Position numbers and translations under genes: made by a program
Shown here: positions 13,848-34,284 of the stretch, piece by piece
Position numbering within the stretch: position 1 is the first letter of the stretch
Layout: each line of letters opens with the position of its first letter
Origin: a virus
DNA: 34,284 nucleotides
IMG/VR virus record: IMGVR_UViG_3300041415_000072
Location: 1 to 34,284 of that record
Strand: one strand, 5' to 3'
Notes under the pieces: model-generated
What the model was told of the DNA's origin: nothing
What the model saw: only the letters and a program-made list of their open reading frames with translations
Databases searched by the model: none

Positions 13848-14786
13848 TTAAATTGTTGAGGTTAGTCTGGTTATCCAGTTGTCATTAAGGATGCGAGTTG
13901 TAAATGGGTATTTATAGCCCACAGTACCTCTCTGGTTGAGCGGGTCAGCAGTTCCGGAAGCCCCTAGAGGTTTCACAATAAACTCTGCTTCTTTCGCTCC
14001 AAGACGAACTACTCCATAAGCCTCTTGTCCTAATATGAACGAAGAGTAGACTGGAGTTGCTGCGCCGTTGTTATAACCGTTGGTGTTTAAGAGCCAGCGT
14101 ACGTTTCGAGTTGCGCCCCACTCTGCTTCCAATGCGTTCATTGGATTTGGGTAGTTTGCAGCTTGAATAAATGAGCTGACAGCTTCCAAGTCGGATTGCA
14201 AATCGACACTCATAAAGCCCCAATAGCTTGAACGTACTGGACTTGTGCCGAACTTGTTTTCGCCAGGGAGTGGGTTCGTGTGGAGGCGAGCATTGCCTTG
14301 ACGTAGAGCCACAATCGCAGTCTGGATGTCTGCGTCTGTAATCTCTGTTGGGGTATTTCCATTGAGACCATGAGAGCAGGCGATTGTAGAAGCCGTAGAG
14401 ACCATCATGTCGCGGATAAGCGTATCCAGCGTAAGTCCAAGTTGGAGCGATAGGACTTTCGTTGCCTCATTGAGAACACGGTCTTGCACGACGTAACTAA
14501 CTTGGTCTGTGATAGTTACGAATGAGCCGTAGAACTGAATTTGTGCTTTAAAGTCAGTTACTCCGAGTTGGTCTCCTGGAGGAGTTTGTCCATCCGTTAG
14601 GGGAACAGTCGCCGCGCTGAGAGTAGAATAACGTCTGAAAACCATTTGGTCCCCAGAGTTAAGCGGTATTTGCCTCTTTTGAGCGAACAAGTCATAGATA
14701 AAATAGGGGCGGGCGAGGGCCAGCAACAATCTATCAAAGTATGTTCTTACTTCTGGAGGCAATTGAGTAAGGGTTGTAATTGCCAT
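13848..14786 (-). CDS. Major capsid protein, N4-gp56 type, 312 aa
   Basis: Recognised by overall sequence texture and order: TQLPPEVRTYFDRLLLALARPYFIYDLFAQKRQIP at the N-terminus, GDQMVFRRYSTLSAATVPLTDGQTPPGDQLG, then an HK97-fold-like body with helical spine (LNEATKVLSLQLGLTLDTLIRDMMVSTAS) and the SFILGQEAYGVVRLGAKEAEFIVKPLGASG segment near the C-terminus. This matches the N4-gp56 family of HK97-fold capsid proteins. It follows the scaffold gene by about 25 bases with an AGGAAAT ribosome site. It forms the icosahedral shell. High confidence in family, moderate in details. Confidence 0.85.
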   Translation of the reverse strand: MAITTLTQLPPEVRTYFDRLLLALARPYFIYDLFAQKRQIPLNSGDQMVFRRYSTLSAATVPLTDGQTPPGDQLGVTDFKAQIQFYGSFVTITDQVSYVVQDRVLNEATKVLSLQLGLTLDTLIRDMMVSTASTIACSHGLNGNTPTEITDADIQTAIVALRQGNARLHTNPLPGENKFGTSPVRSSYWGFMSVDLQSDLEAVSSFIQAANYPNPMNALEAEWGATRNVRWLLNTNGYNNGAATPVYSSFILGQEAYGVVRLGAKEAEFIVKPLGASGTADPLNQRGTVGYKYPFTTRILNDNWITRLTSTI

Positions 14787-24866: not shown

Positions 24867-25523
24867 ATGATTGTGGATATAATTTCGGACCCACATGGGT
24901 TTTACCCAGCTCTTGAGGGAGGAGACTTACTCATTATCGCTGGAGACTTGACGGCGAGAGACGATTTTCAGGAATGGAAAACATTTTTTAAATGGATTGC
25001 CACTTTGACTTATAAAAAAAAGATTGTAATTTGCGGCAATCACGATAGATTCATGGAATATAATCCTGGTTTCATGTTTGATGAAAAGGATTCGTTTGAA
25101 TATCTCTGCGATTCGGGTACTGAGTTTCAGGGACTTAAGATATACGGTTCACCGTGGACGAAGTCCTTTGCGGGGGAAAACCCGAAATGCTTGGCGTTTA
25201 CTTGCGAGACTGAAGAGGAACTGGCTGACCATTGGAAGTGTATCCCAGAGGATACAGATATTCTAGTGACGCATTCGCCGCCATTTACCATTAGAGATGG
25301 AAGAAATCCAAATCAAAATCTGGGTTCAAGATCTTTAATGAAAAGGATTTCCAGAATTAATTTGAAATTACACGTTTTTGGCCATATACATGAAGGCTAT
25401 GGCATAATGGATCTGCAATGGTTAAAATTGAAAAATGGACTTAAAGGGGGCTTGTATGTCAACGCCTCCCACGTCAATGAGTACTACGAGCCGGTTAACC
25501 CCCCAATACGGGTGGTCTTGTGA
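24867..25523 (+). CDS. Calcineurin-like metallophosphoesterase, 218 aa
   Basis: All five metal-binding motifs are visible: SDPHG (D8, H10), GDLTA (D27), GNHDR (N58, H59), THSPPF (H136), and FGHIH (H173, H175). Full length for a stand-alone enzyme of the MPPED/YfcE-like type; soluble with no export signal. It would hydrolyse a phosphate mono- or diester, perhaps a nucleotide or nucleic-acid end, but the substrate cannot be read from the sequence. Plus-strand gene divergent from the terminase operon, with its own sigma70-type promoter and apparently no leader. The 66 aa gene follows with an overlap. Confidence 0.85.
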   Translation: MIVDIISDPHGFYPALEGGDLLIIAGDLTARDDFQEWKTFFKWIATLTYKKKIVICGNHDRFMEYNPGFMFDEKDSFEYLCDSGTEFQGLKIYGSPWTKSFAGENPKCLAFTCETEEELADHWKCIPEDTDILVTHSPPFTIRDGRNPNQNLGSRSLMKRISRINLKLHVFGHIHEGYGIMDLQWLKLKNGLKGGLYVNASHVNEYYEPVNPPIRVVL

Positions 25524-27218: not shown

Positions 27219-27330
27219 ACAGGCTCAGGGTATTAGAAGAAAAGAATCTTTACTACTTGTTTTATTCGGTACATTTTTGTATTATGGTTCTCATTAATCA
27301 ACAACATAACCAAAAACAATGAGGATTGCC

Positions 27331-27903
27331 ATGAACACAACAACAAAGAAACAATATTCGCCTTGGGGAAGAGTACAGAGCAAAGAAGTTATAACGCCTT
27401 GGCTCTACAGCGTAGCAACCTCCTCACATGGAGGTCTTAAACTAAACCGCGAATACAACGCAAAGATACCTGCAATTTTTAGAAAGAAGGGCGGATGGTA
27501 CGAAGAAGATTGCGCCCTTGAGATAGTAGTTTTATTTTTACACGCTCAAATTGAAAAAGACGGTTGCGGTTCAGTTTGGTTTACCAACGACCTAGAAAGA
27601 GCTAAACAAACCGTTAAAGAATATTATCCATACGAATACGAAGAACACTTCAATGTTGTTTTGCAAAGGGGCGAGTCGCGTATAAAAGATGAAGACGCTT
27701 TCAAGGAAGCCAACAAACATAATTTCTTCGCATTTTGCAACCAGGGTATGCAAAACAATGTAAAATCTCATCTTCGTTGCTCGGCAACCGGGGAAGAGAT
27801 TTGCGTAATGTTTGCTAATCACATCCACGAAGCGCACGAAACTCCATATGGAGCCGTTTATACTCAAGAAGAAGTTTTGAACCTAAGAAAAGCAACCATT
27901 TAA
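27331..27903 (+). CDS. DUF7007-like protein, 190 aa
   Basis: The ATG at 27331 follows GAGGATTGCC; an upstream in-frame ATG at 27319 lacks a ribosome site. Residues 9-55 (YSPWGRVQSKEVITPWLYSV, TSSHGGLKLNREYNAKIPAIF) and GGWYEEDCALEIVVLFL match the DUF7007 pattern found in phage and plasmid proteins (SPWG...V.T.SHGG.KL...GWYEEDC). Function of that family is unknown. The C-terminus holds an unrelated helical part (NFFAFCNQGMQNNVK, CVMFANHIHEAHE). First gene of a plus-strand operon. Family assignment from memory of motif order. Confidence 0.65.
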   Translation: MNTTTKKQYSPWGRVQSKEVITPWLYSVATSSHGGLKLNREYNAKIPAIFRKKGGWYEEDCALEIVVLFLHAQIEKDGCGSVWFTNDLERAKQTVKEYYPYEYEEHFNVVLQRGESRIKDEDAFKEANKHNFFAFCNQGMQNNVKSHLRCSATGEEICVMFANHIHEAHETPYGAVYTQEEVLNLRKATI

Positions 27904-33106: not shown

Positions 33107-33358
33107 TTAGTCTCTCTCTTTTAAGGCCTCGAGGAAGGGATTCTCCGAGGCCTTTTTCTTTGCCCACCACTCTTTTCGCTTTTGAGACATCTTCACTCTT
33201 TGAGCTTCTGTCGGCGCTTTAGGCTTGTGGGGAAGTAATTTTATCTCTTCTTTGGGTTTTTCTGGAACAGTCGGAGGCGGAACAGCCAACTTCTTCAGCA
33301 TTTTCTCAATCTTCAGCACTCTCCAAAGAACAATGGCGGAAAATATAGCTCCCAGCAT
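33107..33358 (-). CDS. Membrane-anchored Pro/Lys-rich protein, 83 aa
   Basis: One N-terminal membrane span (residues about 2-16, LGAIFSAIVLWRVLK), then Pro-rich (VPPPTVPEKPKEE, PHKPKAPTEAQRVK) and basic. TAATG-type overlap with the 134 aa gene. The operon terminator of the plus strand lies inside its 3' coding part. A spanin-like layout, but no diagnostic feature. Confidence 0.55.
   Translation of the reverse strand: MLGAIFSAIVLWRVLKIEKMLKKLAVPPPTVPEKPKEEIKLLPHKPKAPTEAQRVKMSQKRKEWWAKKKASENPFLEALKERD
33125..33157 (+). terminator. Intrinsic terminator of the recombination operon
   Basis: GGCCTCG (33125-33131) pairs with CGAGGCC (33146-33152), followed by TTTTTCTTT. Classic form. It lies inside the reverse-strand coding sequence of the 83 aa gene. 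Confidence 0.75.
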
Positions 33359-33762
33359 TAGGCTTGCCTTGCCAATTGAGGGTTTTGAAGCGGGATGAGC
33401 TTTTGAGGGATGGTGAGCGGCACGGTCTTAACTTCGAAATTGAAGAAAGACTGTACGGCTTTAGGAGTTTTGGAGATTTGCCTTTGTTCTTTCATGCGCT
33501 CTTTGAGCCATTTGGTCTTGTGAGCCCAGTCGAGGTAATTCACTTTATATCTCTCAAGCATGTAAGTGAGGAATTCGGCCTCTTTTTCTCCTAAGAAACC
33601 TTCTTTCATGCAGTGTTTTACGAGCTCGAGGTAATAGCGATGATGGAAAAGCCCCCCGTAAGAAAAATTCTCGAGGGCTTTTATTTGCTTGTGATGTTGA
33701 AAGAAGCAGGAAAACTTCTCTTTGAGTTCTGCCAGCCTGTCGAAAAGGTATGTTTGCTCCAT
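33358..33762 (-). CDS. Unknown protein, 134 aa
   Basis: The ATG at 33762 follows AAGGAGG; the frame is open further upstream but lacks a site. Helical, aromatic-rich (FSCFFQHHKQIKALENFSYGGLFHHRYYLEL, YMLERYKVNYLDWAHKTKWLKERM). No motif recognised. First gene of a two-gene minus-strand unit convergent with the recombination operon. Confidence 0.6.
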   Translation of the reverse strand: MEQTYLFDRLAELKEKFSCFFQHHKQIKALENFSYGGLFHHRYYLELVKHCMKEGFLGEKEAEFLTYMLERYKVNYLDWAHKTKWLKERMKEQRQISKTPKAVQSFFNFEVKTVPLTIPQKLIPLQNPQLARQA

Positions 33763-33904
33763 TCTGAAGCCTCCTTGTAGGGCAAACAACTTTACGCTAA
33801 GGGGTTTTTTGAGACAAGCTCTTAAACATTTCTTTAAAAAGCAAATACTTAAGACAAAGAAGCGATAGACTTAAAAAAATCTTAGCATTAGAGTCTTTGA
33901 AAAG
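33763..33904. other. AT-rich intergenic sequence
   Basis: Gap between the 134 aa gene and the hairpin array. Contains CTTAAACATTTCTTTAAAAA (33821-33840), a partial match to the repeated motif, but 60 bases from the nearest start. No gene seen. Confidence 0.4.
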
Positions 33905-33908
33905 TGCG

Positions 33909-34064
33909 AACGCCCCGGAGTTAACGAGGCGTTCACGGAATCGGTGTTAGGAGCACCAATATCAGATATTCACGTCTGGTATCTTATCCACGAAGGATAA
34001 TTTCTAGCAAGAAATCCTGCAAGAAATGAGTCGCTCCCCGGTTCCGATAACAACAAAAGGAACC
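33909..34064 (+). promoter_or_regulatory. Chain of six hairpins before the replication-type gene
   Basis: In order: GAACGCC/GGCGTTC (33909, 33929), GGTG/CACC (33944, 33955), ATCAGA/TCTGGT (33961, 33975; one wobble), TTATCC/GGATAA (33984, 33995), TTTCT/AGAAA with tetraloop AGCA (34001, 34010), GGTTCC/GGAACC (34040, 34059). TTATCCACG at 33984 is one base from the DnaA box TTATCCACA. The last hairpin holds AGGA, the ribosome site of the following GTG. Function: origin-like DNA or regulatory leader. Confidence 0.6.
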
Positions 34065-34068
34065 ATAA

Positions 34069-34284
34069 GTGACTAATCCCGAAAATTTTCAAACAAGCCT
34101 TTATTACGTTATCCCCTCACAAGTTTTTGATGATGAATCATTAAAAGCCGAGTCGTGCATGCTTTATGCACTTATTTCCGGACTATCCTCTGGAGAGGGT
34201 TATTGCTATGCGAGCAATGAATACCTTGCAAAAAGAATGAAATTGTCTAGCAGAAGAATCCAGGTATGGATGGTTGCTCTTGAA
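34069..34284 (+). CDS. HTH_36-like replication-type protein (partial)
   Basis: GTG start eight bases after AGGA. 72 residues are visible and the frame runs to the edge. FQTSLYYVIPSQVFDDESLKAESCMLYALISGLSSGEGYCYASNEYLAKRMKLSSRRIQVWMVALE is the classic N-terminal winged-helix pattern (YxVIP, LLYALI, GYCxASN, YLAxxxxxSxRxxxxWxxxLE) of HTH_36 proteins, common replication initiator or replisome-recruiting proteins in phages and plasmids. The C-terminal part lies outside the window. Hairpins upstream fit an origin or translational control. Confidence 0.75.
   Translation, partial: MTNPENFQTSLYYVIPSQVFDDESLKAESCMLYALISGLSSGEGYCYASNEYLAKRMKLSSRRIQVWMVALE

Follow-up and report, generated by a model that had tools for sequence, protein, structure and literature searches.

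We propose that the 34,284-nucleotide stretch of viral DNA analyzed here (the window) carries, just 5' of its replication-initiator gene (rep), a cis-acting 5' leader RNA that would adopt two alternative states, either in a riboswitch-like or in a kinetic manner, and thereby govern translation of Rep. We consider this account probable, and governing the timing of replication-protein synthesis is the most likely role of the leader. Its conserved place, its paired structure, two mutually exclusive helices of near-equal predicted energies and a promoter-like motif upstream all emerge from sequence comparison with related phages.

The contig encodes a P22-like portal protein (PF16510, 2e-87) and a RecT-type annealing protein, along with terminase and exonuclease matches, and is a fragment of a P22-like phage whose host probably belongs to the Chlamydiia. 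Portal relatives, 28 to 78% identical across the greater part of the protein, and in addition one short fragment, were present in 10 of 232 Chlamydiia genomes. The nearest one (78% identity) was found in a Chlamydiia MAG, against about 23% identity for known phages, and a chlamydial host is suggested because the relatives in Chlamydiia genomes are closer than known phages, with the reservation that binning errors could affect single MAGs. No near DNA matches to the window were found among named phages and plasmids. At the right end of the contig, the GTG-started gene that the initial annotation had called replication-type does match phage replication-initiator families (phrog_270 and HTH_36), its frame ending with the contig after 72 amino acids. 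The small ORF that diverges from it contains an LDWxHKTxWLK motif and is conserved in at least 17 contigs of phages, where it almost always points away from rep. Elsewhere, the contig encodes a DUF7007 protein (27319-27903, + strand; 3e-30) and a phage-borne calcineurin-like phosphoesterase (24867-25523, + strand).

From the letters alone, the initial annotation had described a chain of six hairpins upstream of rep, with a DnaA-like sequence in the fourth and the ribosome site hidden by the sixth, and this observation was confirmed at 33908-34074 (Table 1). RNA folding of 33900-34090 gave exactly six consecutive stems with a predicted energy of -63.0 kcal/mol (z -6.5), and none of 200 shuffled sequences folded as well. 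When 806 windows of 170 nt were compared over both strands of the contig, the lowest z was that of 33908-34074 on the + strand (-5.43, 20 shuffles). The sequence TTATCCACG at 33984-33992 supplies the 5' arm of H4 as well as some of its loop, and the Shine-Dalgarno (SD) sequence and the GTG start codon are located within the loop and 3' arm of H6. The second strongest fold of the contig, at 14026-14195 on the + strand (z -5.2, 20 shuffles), lies antisense to an open frame at 13848-14786.

Table 1. Positions in the window of the leader elements, the competing stem P1, the promoter-like motif and the flanking genes.
Feature	Position	Strand	Evidence or remark
Small divergent ORF (about 130 aa)	33358..33762	-	matches neither Pfam nor PHROG families
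-35-like motif ATAGAC (family consensus CTRGAA)	33865..33870	+	precedes the -10-like hexamer by about 18 nt in most aligned relatives
-10-like hexamer TAGAGT	33889..33894	+	TANNNT at -16 to -25 of H1 in 14/15 leaders
H1, 5'-terminal hairpin	33908..33934	+	two-sided changes in 9/10 pairs (5 leaders)
P1 5' strand	33936..33954 (CGGAATCGG 33936-33944, GGAGC 33950-33954)	+	two-sided changes in 6/11 aligned pairs
H2, hairpin competing with P1, OFF state	33943..33957	+	two-sided changes in 2/5 pairs
H3, 5'-most hairpin in the four-way junction	33959..33982	+	two-sided changes in 3/10 pairs
H4, hairpin with TTATCCACG	33984..34000	+	stem retained, DnaA box not
H5, hairpin with GC-loop-GC apex	34001..34026	+	CAAGC-N6-GCAAG motif in the four relatives
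H6, SD/start-codon hairpin	34029..34074	+	local SD-sequestration ddG -8.9 kcal/mol, p 0.005
H6 outer pairing	AGTCGCT 34029-34035 / AGTGACT 34068-34074	+	
P1 3' strand, GCTCC CCGGTTCCG	34033..34046	+	overlaps the H6 5' arm
H6 inner pairing	GGTTCC 34040-34045 / GGAACC 34059-34064	+	
SD AAGGA	34057..34061	+	
rep, GTG start, winged-helix replication initiator	34069..34284	+	phrog_270 8e-10, HTH_36 2e-7

To find relatives, the small divergent ORF was used as an anchor. Beyond the window, 14 phage contigs whose divergent region is complete, and one truncated contig (G021), had it pointing away from a replication-initiator gene, while L045 and L046, which have the anchor in a different layout, were excluded. 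In the 14 relatives, a structured leader of about 140 to 215 nt separates the divergent ORF from rep. All of the complete regions fold strongly, and the rep-sense fold had a z of -4.2 to -6.0 in the seven complete regions tested, the window included. Since the Rep proteins of these phages are of several types, the leader structure outlives exchange of the gene downstream. The leaders of the window and G017 are identical in about 78% of columns, yet their Rep types differ.

Comparison of the leaders also brought out a long-range stem, P1, that was absent from the initial annotation and encloses H3 to H5 as a four-way junction. In P1, bases 33936-33944 and 33950-33954 pair with 34033-34046, which is incompatible with both H2 and H6; the GGAGC/GCTCC portion is specific to the window phage and was left out of the counted pairs. 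We aligned five leaders (window, G017, L063, L064, and L068) by hand, guided by the structure. For the structure containing P1 (ON: H1, P1, H3, H4, and H5), two-sided changes were seen in 20 of 44 pairs and 93.2% of the cells held standard pairs, and for the six-hairpin structure (OFF) in 20 of 46 pairs with 90.9% of the cells paired, although these figures rest on five sequences and are inflated by the fitting of the alignment to the structure. Sliding the partners of the ON structure by 1 to 3 columns lowered the paired cells to 36 to 51%. Covariation of the stems in relatives, which the initial annotation had named as a check, was thus found for both folds. As a partly independent check on the hand-fitted alignment, a covariance model built from the five leaders retrieved the leader of L061, which was outside the training set, at the homologous place (E 0.0013). 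Covariance-model searches also gave matches in Chlamydiia genomes, of which two were rejected because they overlap genes, L055 running antisense to one for a membrane protein and L073 lying within one for a transporter, and L056 was short and partial. Searching viral contigs for the pattern TCTTATCCACN{1,3}AGGRTAATTT returned one match beyond G017, which fell within a protein-coding gene in an unrelated phage and was attributed to chance.

The predicted energies of the two structures in the window are -58.8 kcal/mol for OFF (SD hidden) and -56.7 kcal/mol for ON (SD free), and the gap is about 1 to 6.5 kcal/mol in most leaders. Thus, comparison points to two incompatible helices, each with covariation and of near-equal predicted energies. 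Over 15 leaders, SD sequestration was stronger than in shuffled sequences (combined p 1e-7). The -8.9 kcal/mol at rep compares with a mean of -2.0 kcal/mol for 17 other genes of the window, and G014 and L063 have almost no local sequestration. We also applied a strict rule for a switch, by which sequestration of the SD amounts to 3 kcal/mol or more and, when the SD is free, the long-range stem takes in two or more anti-SD bases. Seven of the 15 leaders are switch-like by this rule, against 1.1 expected, among them the window with 3 nt; the remaining eight are not, and the rule does not hold throughout the family.

Within the group of leaders to which the window belongs, some unpaired or apical motifs are near-invariant, namely CAAGC-N6-GCAAG in H5 (4 of 5 leaders) and an A-rich H4 loop, and this suggests a binding partner. 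These motifs were not recognized in the other phage groups. The junction hairpins of G010, G019, G014/G020, L066, and L071 could not be aligned in sequence with those of the window group, making a single ligand common to all the phages unlikely, and L004 and other relatives outside the group have only position and strong folding in common with it. Different but strong folds were seen at L004 6300-6650 and in the rep leaders of L059, L060, L069, L070, L066, and L071, and a long closing stem with three hairpins is common to G014 and G020 (GGTATCTT..GATGCC).

With respect to function, the initial annotation had offered an origin, a primase-loading region or a self-regulating leader. It is extremely unlikely that the leader acts as DNA, as a replication origin or a primase-loading site with a DnaA box. 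The site does adjoin rep, it also folds as DNA (z -4.0), and the DnaA box TTATCCAC is present in the window and in G017 (in the forms TTATCCACG / TTATCCACA). However, these are the only two leaders that keep the box: in the other three aligned ones (L063, L064, and L068), H4 reads TTACTCAAA, TTACCCACA or TTATCCAGA, while the H4 stem is retained in all five (with two end pairs lost in L068), which ruled out the DnaA box as a conserved element. Moreover, origin signals in the form of iterons were not found at the leader site, and repeats were instead found inside the rep genes of relatives. Iteron-like repeats of 22 to 24 nt, in three copies, are present in the rep frames of L063, L066, G014 (L070), and L067, about 300 to 400 nt into the frame (620 nt in L067), and the L071 rep gene has a shorter, 22-nt repeat. 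These direct repeats are probably the phage origins; the rep gene of the window is truncated, and for the window this argument is extended from its relatives. The loss of the box from a hairpin that is kept, together with the iterons inside rep, makes an origin or DnaA site in the leader unlikely. Primase loading found no support, as the covarying structure includes RNA-type G.U pairs, which would be T.G mismatches in DNA, and a conserved site for single-strand initiation was not observed. The third proposal held in part. The leader is conserved in the rep sense, with alternative folds that would hide or free the SD, but Rep is less likely to be its own regulator because the window and G017 have similar leaders and different Rep types.

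If the leader acts as RNA, the strand has to be assigned, and this choice rests on G.U counts and on the promoter-like motif. On the rep-sense strand, 19 G.U compared to 11 A.C pairings were counted. A TANNNT hexamer (mostly TAGRNT), about 20 nt before H1, was present in 14 of 15 leaders, whereas 2,000 shuffles gave a mean of 4.5 and a maximum of 10; the motif at 33865-33894 would place the start of the rep-sense transcript at about 33901. Both lines of evidence favor a rightward RNA. A generic sigma-70-type scan detected no leftward promoter at the rep side, and it misses the rightward promoter-like motif upstream of H1 too. These observations bear on the quite unlikely possibility that the locus is a gene for a leftward small RNA resembling lambda OOP, with H1 as the intrinsic terminator of a minus-strand RNA that is antisense to the rep leader or involved in replication control. 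In most relatives, a T-rich tail follows H1 or the closing stem when the minus strand is read (6 to 11 T in 12; mean 7.3, background 4.4), this strand folds about as well as the rep-sense strand in several phages, and lambda has such an RNA beside gene O and its iterons (PMC3349717). Yet the window, G017, and L061 have a weak T-run, G.U outnumbers A.C on the rep-sense strand, the promoter-like motif faces rightward, and the placement of the SD within H6 is meaningful on the rep-sense strand only. H1 may nevertheless serve as a stop for leftward transcription too.

Among rightward RNAs, a static repressing leader is unlikely but deserves more weight than an OOP-like gene. Here, the hairpin chain with H6 would lower Rep translation or protect the 5' end of the mRNA, and P1 would be a by-product with no switch. 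In the window, folding predicts the six-hairpin chain as the most stable structure, OFF is favored by about 2 to 5 kcal/mol in the window group except in L068, and SD sequestration is common across the family. Against this, P1 shows two-sided changes in 6 of 11 pairs and forms 13 perfect pairs in L068, whereas a static chain needs none of these. Very unlikely, in our judgment, is an RNA that modifies RNA polymerase so that terminators in the early operon are read through. The put RNAs of phage HK022 are multi-hairpin RNAs with which an early transcript begins, and a multi-hairpin RNA opening an early transcript here would resemble them; however, a second copy was not recognized at the divergent leftward operon, and the arrangement of SD and anti-SD would be left unexplained.

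In the two-state leader that we favor, transcription would begin just 5' of H1. In the ON state, P1 would close H3, H4, and H5 into the four-way junction and sequester bases that otherwise pair near the SD, so that SD and start codon are open. In the OFF state, P1 would be open and H2 and H6 would form, H6 burying the SD and the start codon. The balance between the two states would then set the timing and the amount of replication initiator made. We infer from the sequences that the leader is transcribed, folds in the cell and affects Rep translation. As triggers, the sequence of folding events while the RNA is being transcribed and a partner that binds the junction are most likely. In the kinetic case, the polymerase would reach the 3' strand of P1 ahead of the SD, and fresh transcripts would be translated while older ones refold into the slightly more stable closed form; alternatively, binding of a protein or small molecule to the junction would shift the balance. 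A further proposal, which is conceivable but rather unlikely, is that the leader is a ligand- or protein-sensing switch that lets phages of obligate intracellular chlamydiae monitor their host cell's state and gate the replication initiator accordingly, the device being kept while initiator types and RNA sequences exchange around it.

The leader resembles translational riboswitches in its conserved, covarying structure in the 5' UTR of the controlled gene and in its P1-closed junction, and the 3' P1 strand would likewise vie with the hairpin that sequesters the SD. Riboswitches, however, bind metabolites and belong to described families, whereas no Rfam family reached its gathering score for the leader and no plausible weak match was found in the region; in addition, the junction hairpins vary between phage groups and the target is a phage replication initiator. 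We file it as a putative two-state translational leader RNA rather than a riboswitch proper. The leader of the MS2 maturation gene forms a cloverleaf with a competing pairing, and translation is limited to transient folds (discussed in PMC6733600). This is likewise a phage 5' leader with a cloverleaf and kinetic control, but the final MS2 cloverleaf shuts translation, whereas here the phage is a DNA phage and the SD is expected to be accessible in the cloverleaf state. In lambda, OOP is a 77-nt leftward antisense RNA and iterons form the origin near gene O (PMC3349717). The tO-pO region is thus similar in being a structured, terminator-bearing RNA region just 5' of a replication initiator with iterons nearby, and the lambda origin within gene O parallels the iteron-like repeats within the rep genes of the relatives, although OOP is leftward and antisense while the evidence here favors the rep-sense strand. 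Finally, manA, wcaG, and PhotoRC-II are structured RNAs in the 5' UTRs of phage genes that were also found by comparison only (PMC2864571), but they precede cyanophage metabolic genes, and their Rfam models had no match here.

In the open-access literature searched, we found neither a comparable rep leader nor a paper on tailed phages of chlamydiae, a group that is barely studied. If our reading is true, a conserved two-state leader RNA on phage replication initiators would be a new place for such a switch. Should the leader respond to a signal from the host, it would indicate a replication cue in hosts that alternate between dormant and dividing forms.
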